NCBI RefSeq assembly: GCF_021401245.1
Contig: NZ_JACBFY010000004.1
Span: 496,001-560,000, forward strand
DNA from: Pseudacidovorax sp. NFM-22
GTDB taxonomy: Bacteria > Pseudomonadota > Gammaproteobacteria > Burkholderiales > Burkholderiaceae_C
DNA length: 64,000 nt
Reading direction: 5' to 3'
The position numbers and the translations under genes are program-made. A model generated the notes under the pieces. That model was given only the letters and a program-made list of their open reading frames with translations, ran no database searches and was not told where the DNA came from. Numbering within the stretch: the first letter of the stretch is position 1; each line of letters starts with the position of its first letter. Shown here piece by piece: positions 5,964-26,669 of this stretch.

Positions 5964-6093
5964 GGTGTTGCCTTTGAACAAAGGGTGGGCCTGAATCAGG
6001 GCATCGAGAACATGCACGAAAAGCCGCGCCCGGCCCTTGGCTGCGCGCGGCATGGCGCCGCACGCAGCCAAGGGCCTGGCCGCATCTCGCGCT

Positions 6094-6256
6094 CTCTTTC
6101 ATCCGGACTGTGACCGTCGGCTTCGGAATCGCACCGAATCTGCTGACCCCGCCGCCACGGCCCGTGAAGGCGGCGGCGGCGGGCGCTCGCGGGCTCGTGC
6201 GGAAGTCGCCTTCCACCATGACCGCCGGTAGGGAATTCCACCCTGCCCTGAGAACG
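6094..6256 (-). promoter_or_regulatory. FMN riboswitch (RFN element) upstream of ribH
   Basis: Read on the minus strand, the region carries the conserved RFN blocks in order: AGGGCAGGGTGGAATTCCC, TACCGGCGGT, a variable arm, AGCCCGCGAGC, a long GC hairpin (CGCCGCCGCC/GGCGGCGG), GTCAGCAGATTCGGTG, CGAAGCCGACGGT and AGTCCGGATGAAAGAGA. All parts of the six-helix FMN aptamer are present. About 130 nt separate the aptamer from the ribH start, enough for an expression platform; ribH is the only gene downstream on this strand. Confidence 0.95.
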
Positions 6257-6323
6257 CTTGGCGGCCACCCGAGGGTGGCTGCGGGCGGATTCTAGGAGCG
6301 GGTCAAAGCCCTTGCTGTCGCCT

Positions 6324-21598: not shown

Positions 21599-22930
21599 AT
21601 GCCTCAAGCCGTCACCGAACAACTCAGCCGCGACCAGCAGATCAGCGCCCTCGAGAAGGACTGGGCGACCAACCCGCGCTGGAAGGGCGTGAAGCGCGGC
21701 TACAGCGCGGCCGACGTGGTCCGCCTGCGCGGCTCCGTGCCGATCGAGTACACGCTGGCCCAGCGCGGCGCCGAGAAGCTGTGGGAGAAGATCAACGGCG
21801 GTGCCAAGAAGGGCTACGTCAACGCCTTCGGCGCCATCACCGCCGGCCAGGCCATGCAGCAGGCCAAGGCGGGCCTGGAGGCCGTGTACCTGTCGGGCTG
21901 GCAGGTCGCCGCCGACGGCAACACGTCCGAGACCATGTACCCCGACCAGTCGCTGTACGCGTACGACTCGGTGCCCACCATGGTCCGCCGCATCAACAAC
22001 ACCTTCAAGCGTGCCGACGAGATCCAGTGGGGCCGCGGCATCAACCCCGGTGATGCCGAGTTCGTCGACTACTTCCTGCCCATCGTGGCCGACGCCGAAG
22101 CCGGCTTCGGCGGCGTGCTCAACGCCTTCGAGCTGATGAAGAACATGATCGCGGCCGGCGCCGCGGGCGTGCACTTCGAAGACCAGCTGGCGGCCGTCAA
22201 GAAGTGCGGCCACATGGGCGGCAAGGTGCTGGTGCCCACGCAAGAGGCCGTCGAGAAGCTGATCGCCGCGCGTTTTGCCGCCGACGTGATGGGTGTGCCT
22301 TCGATCGTGCTGGCCCGCACGGACGCCGAGGCTGCCAACCTGATCACCAGCGACCACGACGCCAACGACAAGCCCTTCCTGACGGGCGAGCGCACGCAGG
22401 AAGGCTTCTTCCGCGTCAAGAATGGCCTGGAGCAGTCCATCAGCCGCGGCGTCGCCTACGCGCCCTATGCTGACCTGGTGTGGTGCGAGACCGGCGTGCC
22501 CGACATCGGCTTCGCCCGCGAGTTCGCCCAGGCCGTGCATGCCGCCTGCCCGGGCAAGCTGCTGAGCTACAACTGCTCGCCCTCGTTCAACTGGAAGAAG
22601 AACCTGAACGAAAAGCAGATCGCCTCGTTCCAGGAAGACCTGTCGGCCCTCGGCTACAAGTTCCAGTTCATCACGCTGGCCGGCATCCACATCAACTGGT
22701 TCCAGACCTTCCAGTTCGCCCATGCCTATGCCCGCGGCGAAGGCATGAAGCACTACACCGAGATGGTGCAGGAGCCCGAGTTCGCCGCGCGCGAGAAGGG
22801 CTACACCTTCGTGTCGCACCAGCAGGAAGTCGGCGCCGGTTATTTCGATGACGTGACCACCGTCATCCAGGGCGGCTCGTCCAGCGTGAAGGCGCTGACG
22901 GGCTCGACGGAGGAAGAGCAGTTCCACTGA
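21599..22930 (+). CDS. aceA: Isocitrate lyase
   Basis: 443 residues. It splits isocitrate into succinate and glyoxylate, the first step of the glyoxylate bypass needed for growth on acetate and fatty acids. The catalytic loop [15 protein letters not shown] holds the active-site Cys; [10 protein letters not shown] supplies the metal-binding acid, and [13 protein letters not shown] is the conserved substrate-closing segment. The length is close to that of the Escherichia coli enzyme (434). The ATG at 21599 has TTGGAG upstream and is preferred to an in-frame ATG at 21584. It is monocistronic, with a palindromic site upstream and a terminator downstream; malate synthase is not adjacent. Confidence 0.97.
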
Positions 22931-22958
22931 TCGGTTCAGCAGGTTCGCTCAGGGAGCA

Positions 22959-22986
22959 GGGCTCGGCCGGTGGCCGGGCCCTTTTT
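22959..22986 (+). terminator. Rho-independent terminator of aceA
   Basis: GGGCTCGGCC and GGCCGGGCCC pair over 10 bp (one G-U) with a GGT loop, followed by TTTTT. It starts 28 bp after the aceA stop. Confidence 0.85.
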
Positions 22987-23115
22987 GCGTGTTGGGTGCG
23001 CGTCGGGAATGCGCTGCGCCGCTCTGGCCTCTTGCGGTTCTGAGAAGTGCCTTGATCTTTCTTTGCAGCGTGTTGCGCATCGGCACCTGCAGCAGGGCTG
23101 CGGCCGAGCGGCCGC

Positions 23116-23121
23116 TACAAT
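23116..23121 (+). promoter_or_regulatory. Probable -10 box of the thrS leader transcript
   Basis: TACAAT in an otherwise GC-rich stretch, 51 bp before the leader-peptide ATG and 205 bp before thrS. No convincing -35 is visible at 17 bp. A start near 23128 would put the whole leader-peptide and terminator module in the 5' leader of thrS. Confidence 0.45.
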
Positions 23122-23171
23122 CGCGCGCTCATCGTCTGTTCACCAACAAGGGCGAGAAAGGCAATCTGGTT

Positions 23172-23234
23172 ATGACACCGCGAACTACTGGCACCGCATC
23201 GTTCGGTCTGCTTCCCCAGGGGAGCGGCCGGTAG
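23172..23234 (+). CDS. Threonine-rich leader peptide of thrS (attenuator)
   Basis: A 20-codon reading frame [20 protein letters not shown] ending in TAG. Four of its first eight codons are Thr (ACA, ACT, ACT, ACC), far above expectation, and AAAGG lies 11 bp before the ATG as a weak ribosome site. It sits upstream of threonyl-tRNA synthetase and is followed by an intrinsic terminator 20 bp before thrS. CCGCGC (23237-23242), just past its stop, can pair with GCGCGG (23279-23284), the 5' arm of the terminator. A ribosome stalled at the Thr codons would leave this segment free to form the antiterminator; a ribosome at the stop would cover it. This is the logic of amino-acid biosynthetic attenuators; the call is from sequence only. 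Confidence 0.6.
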
Positions 23235-23276
23235 GCCCGCGCAGCGCCGGCAGGTCCGGCACGCTCATCCAGCACG

Positions 23277-23308
23277 AAGCGCGGCTCACCCCCGCGCTTT
23301 TTTGTTTT
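23277..23308 (+). terminator. Attenuator terminator before thrS
   Basis: AAGCGCGG (23277-23284) and CCGCGCTT (23292-23299) form a perfect 8-bp stem with a 7-nt loop, followed by a T-rich run (TTTTTTGTTTT). It ends 18 bp before the thrS ATG, where a terminator only makes sense as an attenuator. Its 5' arm has an alternative partner at 23237-23242; a small hairpin GCCGG/CCGGC (23246-23260) fits inside that alternative loop. Confidence 0.75.
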
Positions 23309-23325
23309 CCGCTCCAAGGTTTCCC

Positions 23326-25233
23326 ATGATCCAGATCACGCTCCCCGACAACTCCCGCCGCGAATACCCCGGCCCCGTGACGGTGGCCGAAGTGGCCCAG
23401 TCCATCGGCCCCGGCCTCGCCAAGAACACGGTGGCCGGCAAGGTGGACGGCAAGCTGGTGGACGCCAGCGACGTCATCGACCACGACGCTCGCCTGCAGA
23501 TCATCACGCCCAAGGACGAGGAAGGGCTGGAGATCATCCGCCACTCCTGCGCCCACCTGGTCGGCCATGCGGTCAAGCAGCTCTATCCCACGGCCAAGAT
23601 GGTGATCGGCCCGGTGATCGACGAGGGCTTCTATTACGACATCTCCTACGAGCGCCCCTTCACGCCCGACGACATGGCGGCCATCGAGCAGCGCATGAAG
23701 GAACTGATCGCGCAGGACTACGACGTCATCAAGAAGATGACGCCGCGCGCCGAGGTGATCGATGTCTTCAAGTCCCGCGGCGAGGACTACAAGCTGCGCC
23801 TTGTGGAGGACATGCCGGATGAACAGGCCATGGGCCTGTACTACCACCAGGAATATGTGGACATGTGCCGCGGCCCGCACGTGCCCAACACGCGCTTCCT
23901 GAAGGTCTTCAAGCTCACGAAATTGGCCGGCGCCTACTGGCGCGGTGATGCCAAGAACGAGCAGCTGCAGCGCATCTACGGCACGGCCTGGGCCGACAAG
24001 AAGCAGCTCGATCAGTACATCCAGCGCATCGAGGAGGCCGAGAAGCGCGACCACCGCAAGCTGGGCAAGGAACTCGACCTGTTCCACATCGACGACGTGG
24101 CACCCGGCGTGGTCTTCTGGCATCCCAAGGGCTGGGCCCTGTGGCAGGCCGTGGAGCAGTACATGCGCCAGGTCTACAAGGACACGGGCTACCAGGAAGT
24201 GAAGGGCCCGCAGATCCTCGACAAGAGCCTGTGGGAGAAGACGGGCCACTGGCAGAACTACCGCGAGAACATGTTCGTCACGGAGTCGGAGAAGCGCGAC
24301 TACGCGCTCAAGCCGATGAACTGCCCTGGCCACGTGCTCATCTTCAAGAGCGACCTGCGCAGCTACCGCGAACTGCCGCTGCGCTACGGCGAGTTCGGCC
24401 AGTGCCACCGCAACGAGCCCTCGGGCGGCCTTCACGGCATCATGCGTGTGCGCGGCTTCACGCAGGATGATGGCCACATCTTCTGCACGGAGGACCACAT
24501 CCTCGAGGAATGCGTGGCCTACACGTCGCAGTTGCTCAAGGTGTATGCGGACTTCGGCTTCACGGACATCCTCTACAAGGTGGCAACGCGCCCCGAGCAT
24601 CGCATCGGCTCCGACGAGCTCTGGGACAAGGCCGAAGGCGCGCTGATGGAAGCGCTGCGCCGATCGGGCGTGGACTTCGTCATCGCCCCGGGCGATGGGG
24701 CCTTCTATGGCCCCAAGATCGAGTACACGTTGCGCGACGCCATCGGCCGCCAGTGGCAGTGCGGCACGATGCAGGTGGACTTCAACATGGCCGAGCGCCT
24801 GGGCGCCGAGTACGTGACGGAGTCCAGCGGTCGCGCCCACCCGGTGATGCTGCACCGGGCCATCGTCGGCAGCCTCGAGCGCTTCATCGGAATGCTGATC
24901 GAGCACCACGCCGGCGCCATGCCTGTTTGGCTCGCGCCGGTGCAGATTTCGGTGCTGAACATCACGGATGCGCAGGCCGACTATGCTGCGGAAGTTGCGA
25001 AAACGCTGCGCCATCAAGGGTTTAGGGTGCAGCTCGATCTGCAGAACGAGAAGATCACGTATAAAATACGCAAGCATTCGCTGCAAAAGCTTCCGTACAT
25101 CCTCGTCGTGGGTGACAAGGAAAAGGAAGCCGGTGCCGTCGCGGTGCGCGCCCGAGGCAATGTCGACCTCGGTGTCATGTCGGTGGAGGCGTTCTCCCAA
25201 AAGATCGCCGACGACATCTCCAGCAAGCGTTGA
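23326..25233 (+). CDS. thrS: Threonyl-tRNA synthetase
   Basis: 635 residues, the normal bacterial length. Residues 1-60 form the TGS domain ([20 protein letters not shown]); the editing domain follows with [16 protein letters not shown] (HxxxH zinc-like motif) and [11 protein letters not shown]. The class II catalytic core has motif 2 in [20 protein letters not shown] with zinc-binding Cys in MNCPGH, and motif 3 near [13 protein letters not shown]. The C-terminal anticodon-binding domain ends the protein. It charges tRNA-Thr and clears mischarged Ser-tRNA-Thr. It is the first gene of the thrS-infC-rpmI-rplT-pheST-ihfA unit, behind a Thr-rich leader peptide and a terminator. Confidence 0.98.
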
Positions 25234-25338
25234 CAACCCTCAGGTCCGAGCTTTACTGCCGGGTCTGTGCTTTGCTTGGTGCGTGCCAATAACGGCGTTA
25301 GCTACAGAATTTGTAGCATCTGATGAAGGACTGAAGCC

Positions 25339-25935
25339 ATCGCTACTGCATTTCGCGACCGTCGCCAACGCGAGGAACGCCAACACCGCCTGAACCGGGA
25401 AATCATGGCCCCGGAAGTTCGCCTGTTCGGACCCGAAAACGAGGCCCTGGGCGTTGTGAGCCTTTCCGAGGCATTGCGTCTGGCCGGCGAGCACGACGTG
25501 GACCTGGTCGAGGTGGTTGCTGCCGCCAATCCGCCGGTCTGCCGGTTGATCGAGTACGGCAAGTTCAAATTCCTCGAACAGAAGAAGGCCGCCGAGGCGA
25601 AGTCGAAGCAGAAGGTCATCGAGGTCAAGGAAGTCAAGTTCCGGCCCGGTACCGACGATGGCGACTACAACATCAAGATGCGCAACATCCGTCGTTTCCT
25701 GGACGACGGCGACAAGTGCAAGATCACGCTGCGCTTCCGCGGTCGCGAGATCACGCACCAGGAGCTGGGCTTGGCCCTGCTGCAGCGCATCCGGGACGAA
25801 CTGGGCGACGCCATCGTGGTCGAGCAGTTCCCCAAGCTGGAAGGCCGGCAGATGATCATGATGATCGCGCCGGGCCGCAAGAAGGGTGGGGCGGCTCCCA
25901 AGGCCGCCGAGCCGGCAACGTCCGGCCAGGCCTGA
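25339..25935 (+). CDS. infC: Translation initiation factor IF-3, non-AUG start
   Basis: 198 residues when started at ATC 25339. The usual IF-3 N-terminus ([16 protein letters not shown]) extends upstream of the first ATG (25405) as [14 protein letters not shown]. An in-frame stop at 25324 leaves no ATG, GTG or TTG between, and GAAGGA (25325-25330) is spaced 8 nt from ATC. Starting at a rare codon is the known basis of IF-3 autoregulation (AUU in Escherichia coli), because IF-3 rejects non-canonical starts. The N-domain, lysine-rich linker ([15 protein letters not shown]) and C-domain ([20 protein letters not shown]) are intact. IF-3 binds the 30S subunit and checks initiator tRNA pairing. Confidence 0.9.
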
Positions 25936-25978
25936 AGCGCGAGCTTCGCCTGCCTGCAAAGGATTTCGCCGCTGGCGC

Positions 25979-26053
25979 CGCAAGGCGCGGGTGGCGGAAT
26001 GAAGAAGTGCCTCGAAGGCCAACAAGTCCGGGAAGGATTCCCGGCGCCTTGCG
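25979..26053 (+). promoter_or_regulatory. Structured rpmI leader, candidate L20 autoregulatory site
   Basis: CGCAAGGCGC (25979-25988) is exactly complementary to GCGCCTTGCG (26044-26053), closing a 75-nt domain between the infC stop and the rpmI ribosome site. Inside it CCGGGAA (26028-26034) can pair with TTCCCGG (26038-26044), a competing hairpin that shares bases with the long stem. In Escherichia coli, L20 represses rpmI-rplT by binding structure at the same place; here the role is inferred from position. Confidence 0.5.
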
Positions 26054-26077
26054 AGCACAAGTAAAAGGAGCATTCAC

Positions 26078-26281
26078 ATGCCCAAGATGAAGACCAAGAG
26101 CAGCGCGAAGAAACGCTTCCGCGTTCGTCCCGGTGGCACCGTCAAGCGCGGTCAAGCCTTCAAGCGTCACATCCTGACCAAGAAGACCACCAAGAACAAG
26201 CGCCACCTGCGCGGTGCGGTGACGGTTCACGAGACCAATATGGTTTCGATGGCCGCCATGCTGCCCGGCCAAGGCATTTGA
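26078..26281 (+). CDS. rpmI: 50S ribosomal protein L35
   Basis: 67 residues, very basic, with the L35 pattern [20 protein letters not shown] and the C-terminal [12 protein letters not shown]. It packs in the interior of the large subunit near 23S rRNA domain II. A strong AAAAGGAG lies 7 bp before the ATG; the structured leader upstream may mask this site. It is followed 28 bp later by rplT. Confidence 0.96.
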
Positions 26282-26309
26282 TCAACCGACGAACTAGGAA
26301 GGATTCAAT

Positions 26310-26669
26310 ATGCCTCGCGTCAAACGTGGTGTAACCGCTCGCGCCCGCCACAAGAAGGTTCTCGCCCTTGCCAAGGGCTTCCGCGGTCGTCGCGGCAACG
26401 TCTTCCGCATCGCCAAGCAGGCGGTGATGAAGGCGGGCCAGTACGCCTACCGTGACCGCCGTGCCAAGAAGCGCGTTTTCCGTCGTCTGTGGATCGCGCG
26501 TATCAACGCCGCCTCCCGTGAACTGGGCCTGACCTACAGCCAGTTTGCCAACGGCATCCGCAAGGCCGGCATCGAGATCGACCGCAAGGTCCTCGCCGAC
26601 ATCGCCGTGCACGACAAGGCGGCTTTCGCCGGCATCGTGGAGCAGGTCAAGGCCAAGCTGGCTGCTTGA
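26310..26669 (+). CDS. rplT: 50S ribosomal protein L20
   Basis: 119 residues beginning [20 protein letters not shown] with [20 protein letters not shown], the long basic L20 helix that binds 23S rRNA early in assembly; the C-terminal globular half ([19 protein letters not shown]) is the part that recognises the rpmI-rplT mRNA in enteric bacteria. An AGGAAGGA ribosome site precedes the ATG. Two hairpins separate it from pheS. Confidence 0.97.

Follow-up and report, generated by a model that had tools for sequence, protein, structure and literature searches.

A putative threonine-sensing transcription attenuator in front of thrS conserved in Burkholderiales

The thrS gene, encoding threonyl-tRNA synthetase (ThrRS), is preceded in the window (the whole stretch of DNA analyzed, 64,000 nucleotides) by a short leader ORF and a terminator hairpin which, judging from sequence comparison and modelling, very probably form a ribosome-mediated transcription attenuator sensing charged tRNA-Thr (probability about 90%). 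In ribosome-mediated attenuators a short control ORF, rich in codons for the amino acid that is sensed, has its stop codon beside arm 2, the arms can form 1:2, 2:3 and 3:4 pairings, and a terminator stands before the gene. Thr-leader attenuation before thrS had been proposed from the letters of the DNA alone (the original prediction), and the proposal is supported by the family genomes, where comparison shows that the ORF in its frame, its Thr content, the position of its stop codon, the terminator and the arms, with arm 2 in common, are conserved, and that a few changes are compensatory. If the reading is correct, threonine-tRNA supply gates thrS, and potentially IF3, L35, L20, PheRS and IHF-alpha, in this bacterial order, and the element can be tested in many genera and in leaderless genomes that keep the terminator.

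Organization of the thrS leader in the window

The elements of the leader region are given in Table 1. The 20-codon frame of the original prediction is present, with Thr at codons 2 (ACA), 5 (ACT), 6 (ACT) and 8 (ACC), as are the intrinsic terminator with its T-run in front of thrS and the competing arm CCGCGC close to the leader stop. The Shine-Dalgarno sequence is one that we take to be complementary to the 3' end of 16S rRNA. Three pairings can be drawn: arm 2, at the stop, can pair either with the Thr codons (arm 1) or with arm 3, and arm 3 can instead pair with arm 4 to give the terminator. The 1:2 pairing, in which the Thr-codon arm 23179-23192 faces 23227-23241 with the stop codon included, had been overlooked in the original prediction. 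The genes that follow thrS are, in order, infC, rpmI, rplT, pheS, pheT and ihfA (named from their translations), so that the operon originally described is correct as gene content; a single transcript would presumably run from thrS through ihfA.

Table 1. Elements of the thrS leader locus and their positions in the window
Element	Position	Strand	Basis or detail
TACAAT, probable -10 element of the promoter for the leader	23116..23121	+	Position and recurrence of TANAAT in relatives; without clear -35
Shine-Dalgarno AGAAAGG of the leader ORF	23155..23161	+	10 nt 5' of ATG
Near-invariant core GGTTATGACACCGCGAAC	23168..23185	+	121 leaders, recognized by part of the same core
Leader ORF/peptide, 20 codons, MTPRTT...	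23172..23234	+	ATG 23172, stop TAG 23232-23234
Arm 1, CGCG + CTACTGGC, inside codons 3-7	23179..23192	+	1:2 duplex -19.2 kcal/mol, 2/100 shuffles as good
Arm 2, overlapping the stop codon	23227..23242	+	2:3 duplex -18.7 kcal/mol, 18/100 shuffles as good
Anti-terminator arm CCGCGC, part of arm 2	23237-23242	+
Arm 3, terminator 5' arm AAGCGCGG	23277..23284	+	Terminator scan and comparison with relatives
Terminator loop CTCACCC	between 23284 and 23292	+
Arm 4, terminator 3' arm CCGCGCTT	23292..23299	+	Terminator scan and comparison with relatives
Terminator T-tract TTTTTTGTTTT	23298..23308	+
thrS, threonyl-tRNA synthetase, regulated gene	23326..25233	+	ATG at 23326

In the proposed mechanism RNA polymerase would start just 3' of TACAAT (23116) and make a leader RNA carrying the short ORF. 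With Thr-tRNA plentiful, the ribosome would move quickly through MTPRTT... to the stop codon and mask arm 2; arms 3 and 4 would then pair and transcription would terminate near 23305. With Thr-tRNA scarce, the ribosome would pause over one of Thr codons 5 and 6, masking arm 1 and leaving arm 2 free to pair with arm 3, and the polymerase would continue into thrS and the following genes. If no ribosome initiates, the 1:2 pairing would form and the terminator would win. Promoter activity, translation of the ORF, termination in vivo, ribosome stalling and a response to threonine are the steps that we infer.

Taken alone, the sequence of the window holds little of the attenuator layout above chance. 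A terminator scan of 4.5 kb (22000-26500) gave 6 sites where 3.3 (sd 2.0) would be expected, and the fold of the whole leader (225 nt) had a z of -0.60, which is no signal, as expected of a switch. Rfam at the gathering score matched no leader, whether in the window or at 20 further loci, and at a low threshold the leader region gave just two matches at chance level (E 1.8 and 4.3). It is the recurrence of the frame, the Thr codons, the stop and the arms among relatives, in 121 of the 145 family genomes, that makes the layout significant.

Conservation of the leader in the family

The family sample comprised 150 genomes from 141 genera, 146 of them with a thrS match; the region 5' of thrS was readable in 145, four genomes being dropped for lack of a thrS match and one for an internal match only. 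Thirty-two of the 145 regions came from loci of earlier searches and from the window itself. The core GGTT[A/G]TGACACCGC was found in 117 of the 145 genomes, and under a slightly looser rule a leader of the form MTPRT(T)... precedes thrS in 121. The family sequences are related, and these leader counts are not independent events.

The alignment of relatives called for in the original prediction showed the Thr codons to be conserved: Thr occupies codon 5 in all 121 leaders and codon 2 in all but one (120), and it is also encoded at codon 6 in 92 and at codon 7 in 60. Since the leaders were recognized by the core, its invariance is partly a matter of choice; the statistics on frame and Thr content therefore concern codons outside it. 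Past codon 6, Thr accounts for 180 of 993 in-frame codons (18%), against 11/872 and 19/872 (1-2%) in the other two frames, and a stop is reached after a median of 7 codons in frame, as against 37 and 35 out of frame. By these sequence statistics, the reading frame of the leader past codon 6 is under clear selection. The leaders are 9 to 27 codons long, 72 of them having 12 or 13 codons.

A terminator between leader and thrS was detected by script in 120 of the 121 relatives, and in the remaining one (L090) it was recognized by eye, with an 11-nt loop. The median distance from the terminator stem to the ATG of thrS is 27 nt. In the alignment of the 121 leaders, GGTT directly before the leader ATG is fixed, and columns -15, -14 and -12 are strongly conserved. 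UGGUUA in the core, which by eye might mimic the anticodon of tRNA-Thr, was rejected as such because the flanks of its would-be stem are variable.

Evidence on the leader promoter

A sigma-70 consensus scan of 22000-26500 found no promoter anywhere, and so none 3' of 23234, where the original prediction had held that a promoter would refute attenuation; with 0.5 expected by chance, this is weak evidence. In 97 of 121 relatives a TANAAT stands 36-110 nt 5' of the leader ATG (median 51 nt), against 2.2 expected from mononucleotide shuffles. The best -35 hexamers agree with TTGACA at 1-4 of the 6 positions. Transcription would presumably start just 3' of the TACAAT of the window.

Competing pairings

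L090 has a terminator loop longer than the script allows, and the pairing statistics therefore cover the other 120 leaders. The mean energy of the 2:3 duplex was -16.2 kcal/mol against -13.4 for shuffled sequences, and that of the 1:2 duplex -13.1 against -10.4. The stems are conserved in this sense, contrary to the refuting result named in the original prediction, the 2:3 duplex being better than the median shuffle in 113/120 leaders and the 1:2 duplex in 106/120, and some arms covary. At most 5 of 100 shuffles were as good in only 32/120 leaders for 2:3 and 45/120 for 1:2.

The same arm 2 (at least 4 nt shared) is used by the 1:2 and 2:3 pairings in 114/120 leaders, compared with an expectation of 67.1 for shuffled linkers. 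Owing to the CGCG common to arms 1 and 3, 56% of the shuffled linkers share arm 2 as well, and less weight is therefore placed on this count. Shuffles that both share arm 2 and pair as well in sum make up a median of 4%, and no more than 5% for 69/120 leaders. The core of the 2:3 pairing starts between -6 and +20 relative to the stop codon in 102/120, which bears out the placing of the competing arm by the leader stop.

Arms 1 and 3 hardly vary among the 120 leaders. GCGCGG is missing from arm 3 in eight. In two leaders of one genus (L027 and L131) and in L119 the arm reads ACGCGG and its partner is CCGCGU, in place of CCGCGC; in L126 CGGCTTC is paired with GAAGCCG; the other four variants form wobble or shifted helices. 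Support from covariation thus amounts to four sequences from three genera.

Effect of ribosome position in an energy model

The cost of freeing arm 3 was calculated with an energy model in which the RNA extends up to the terminator loop and the ribosome covers 12 nt 3' of the A-site codon. Over the 120 leaders the mean cost was 7.69 kcal/mol with the ribosome at codon 5, 4.72 with the ribosome at the stop codon and 3.99 with none; the cost at codon 5 exceeded that at the stop in 91/120 leaders and that without a ribosome in 104/120. The corresponding values for the window were 9.57, 5.26 and 5.05 kcal/mol. With shuffled linkers the stalled cost was still 6.43 kcal/mol, against the 7.69 observed, and the difference between stall and stop was 0.56 kcal/mol compared with 2.97 observed, that between stall and no ribosome 0.94 compared with 3.70. 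In this energy model only the difference between states stands out from the shuffles.

A cruder measure, the probability of upstream pairing of arm 3, gave a moderate separation (0.87 stalled, 0.63 at the stop and 0.60 with no ribosome), and for the window a weak one (0.85, 0.71 and 0.83, respectively). When arm 4 is included, the terminator dominates at equilibrium even with a stalled ribosome (mean 0.89). The switch, if real, must therefore be kinetic. Classical attenuators rely on kinetic switching.

Codon choice in the leader

The leader of the window uses ACA, CGA, ACT and ACT, then ACC. In six genes of the window Thr is encoded by ACG 55 times and by ACC 41 times, ACA and ACT never being used, and CGA accounts for 2 of 184 Arg codons. 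Among the 121 leaders, ACA stands at codon 2 in 119, CGA at codon 4 in 115 and ACT at codon 5 in 107. The A of CGA is retained in 65 of the 66 sequences where the predicted 1:2 pairing leaves this base unused; pairing alone is therefore insufficient as an explanation. According to a theoretical treatment, the codons of attenuators are picked for sensitive tRNA charging, not for rarity as such (PMC1183508), and for the theory of codon choice in attenuators the conserved rare codons of the thrS leader would be a puzzle. As a tentative suggestion, which we hold to be possible rather than probable, GGTTATGACACCGCGAAC could be a sensor frozen into an 18-nt cassette in several large families, in which the rare ACA-CCG-CGA-ACT codons do more than pair; a slow CGA before the Thr codons might pace the ribosome and perhaps make the sensing of Thr-tRNA unusually sharp. 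The same tentative suggestion includes a rewiring from operator to attenuator at or near the root of Burkholderiales.

Distribution in the order and beyond

A scan for the core together with a Shine-Dalgarno sequence gave at least 118 named loci. The genera among the matches listed include Acidovorax, Variovorax, Comamonas, Rhodoferax, Massilia, Janthinobacterium, Herbaspirillum, Burkholderia, Paraburkholderia and Cupriavidus, and other titles among them belong to bins named only bacterium, beta proteobacterium, Proteobacteria or Pseudomonadota. From the named matches the order is taken to be Burkholderiales, and one of the carriers is Variovorax paradoxus (L189). Among the matches listed, the locus most similar to the window is that of Pseudacidovorax sp. 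RU35E (95% over 3.9 kb), so that the window probably belongs to this genus or to a near one. The leader and thrS also lie on a contig titled Chitinophaga pinensis (Bacteroidota; L237), a title that is probably wrong. Among 130 loci, made up of the 118 scan loci among the matches listed and 12 from the scan of the order, and in part from genomes that overlap with the family set, thrS lies within 310 nt of the leader ATG in 129; in the remaining one the sequence ends 43 nt after the ATG, so that thrS is next in 129 of the 129 that are readable.

Of 300 genomes from the order, 22 contain the exact 18-mer GGTTATGACACCGCGAAC, eight in each of two families (f1 and f8) and two in each of three others (f10, f32 and f39). 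Other families of the order were sampled by 60 upstream regions from 50 families (out of 107 genomes with thrS), one per family and 10 more, some of the latter chosen because their families had matches to the core. By eye, a short Thr ORF, mostly with Thr after Arg, followed by a terminator was recognized in 19/60 regions from 14 families, or in 13/50 of the one-per-family set; no leader was recognized in the other 41/60. Some of the leaders take the MTPRT form and others read, for example, MFKRTTTTRISR, MAVRTTTTHP, MQRTSTKTITYLG or MQLNRTTTTS, the weakest being MGFRTCMPDSMHRF in f24 with one Thr. A fixed criterion, an ATG start and no fewer than 3 Thr within 6 codons, was passed by 11/60 regions, 9 of them among the one-per-family 50, compared with 0.8% of shuffles. 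Alternative pairings are present in these families too, and are mostly weaker.

In many other families of the order (L289-L348) and in several genomes outside it (L349-L368) a tRNA gene lies 5' of thrS. Rfam confirmed it in 10 of 20 loci, and by eye its anticodon is GAC (Val); thrS may share a transcript with this upstream tRNA gene. One genome of the class outside the order (G466, locus L349) has a ThrRS whose start is 83% identical to that of the window. Before its thrS stand a short ORF, MSTTTAQR, and a terminator, with no CGU-loop motif (see below). Transfer of the gene together with its regulator and an independent origin are both possible.

Alternative explanations

The hairpin might simply terminate the upstream gene or stray transcription, accompanied by an incidental ORF, or it might act as a fixed brake on thrS; we consider this very unlikely. 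The genomes without the leader speak for it. By our rule the leader is absent from 24 of the 145 family genomes (one of these, L129, may hold a diverged form, MTTRTRRS..., as judged by eye), and in 18 of the 24 a terminator-like hairpin is retained no more than 130 nt from thrS. By reading, 15 of the 18 hairpins belong to the GCGCGG or GGTGCGG type, and such a hairpin can thus occur where the sensor is missing. Five of these genomes (L055, L071, L072, L091 and L142) have a GCGCGG-type terminator stem starting 15-28 nt after TANAAT, that is, an orphan terminator lies almost at the start of the transcript with the leader ORF gone. Against an ordinary terminator, however, the isocitrate lyase gene upstream already has a strong terminator-like site of its own (11 bp, 22958-22982), which separates it from the thrS leader, the ORF is strongly constrained in frame, Thr and stop position, and arm 2 recurs beyond expectation. 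That the leader peptide arrests the ribosome by its nascent chain or by codon context, the fixed MTPRT start setting the stall beyond Thr shortage, possibly for another signal, is improbable in our view, if slightly less so. Residues and codons 2-5 are almost fixed, partly through the way the set was recognized, and the retention of CGA, including its A where the model leaves it unpaired, would fit such an arrest. In other families, however, the first residues vary (MFKRTTTT, MAVRTTTT, MQRTSTK, MQLNRTTTTS) and the Thr after Arg stays, as is expected for Thr sensing, and five residues are short for arrest in the exit tunnel.

In E. coli, ThrRS binds a tRNA-like hairpin in front of thrS and blocks its translation. 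This operator serves the same gene and the same physiological demand as the leader described here, and repression by ThrRS of its own synthesis through such a tRNA mimic is the known control in E. coli, self-regulation being cited in PMC2965389. As the explanation of the present element we regard it as extremely unlikely. With a median of 27 nt between terminator stem and thrS ATG there is little room for an operator, and a CGU-loop motif of the E. coli type, which was written after reading the regions from outside the order, was found in 0/145 family and 0/60 order regions (none of the 205 scanned in the order), against 10 of the 20 regions read upstream of thrS elsewhere in the class (sampled from 53 genomes with thrS). 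A stricter scan for a perfect-stem operator gave 7/145, 1/60 and 2/20, respectively, and does not discriminate. The operator may have been replaced in Burkholderiales rather than gained elsewhere. If the attenuator reading is true, two unrelated mechanisms would have replaced each other on one essential gene within one bacterial class.

Relation to known attenuators

The thrS leader follows the same scheme of ORF, arms and terminator as the attenuators of the enteric amino-acid operons (trp, thr, leu and his), and differs from them in governing an aminoacyl-tRNA synthetase operon instead of biosynthesis. Leader-peptide attenuation of a synthetase gene occurs in E. coli pheST, with the leader peptide pheM. 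The pheST attenuator responds to Phe from within the thrS-pheT cluster, whereas here thrS, the first gene, has a Thr sensor. The leader of thrS has few Thr codons, the first of them rare (ACA, ACT), in contrast to the eight ACC codons given for the E. coli thr leader (PMC1183508). A Thr leader peptide before thrS, thrL, is called an attenuator by the authors of a study on Streptomyces lividans (PMC8079986); as described there, it reads MKRVRPFLETTPGFVPAR, with two Thr, a leaderless start and no clear intrinsic terminator, and it is unrelated to the present leader in sequence and phylum. A report on Burkholderia cenocepacia places its 82 short 5'UTRs in a supplementary table (PMC5688073).

Among titles and openings of abstracts, no report of a thrS leader in Betaproteobacteria was recognized; Lopatovskaya 2010 (PubMed 20198868) may already describe the present one. 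That work is said to be a comparative study of amino-acid and aminoacyl-tRNA operons. Leader-peptide attenuation being already known, also for synthetase genes, we would class the thrS leader of Burkholderiales as an apparently new case of a known mechanism.

Other observations in the window

An FMN riboswitch at 6087-6259 on the minus strand scored 105 bits and is ordinary. The infC gene (25339-25935) has an apparent non-AUG start, ATC at 25339, behind GAAGGACTGAAGCC, its first residue being given as (I). The start codon of E. coli infC is AUU, and by analogy the control of IF3 over its own synthesis through the infC start codon may persist here.
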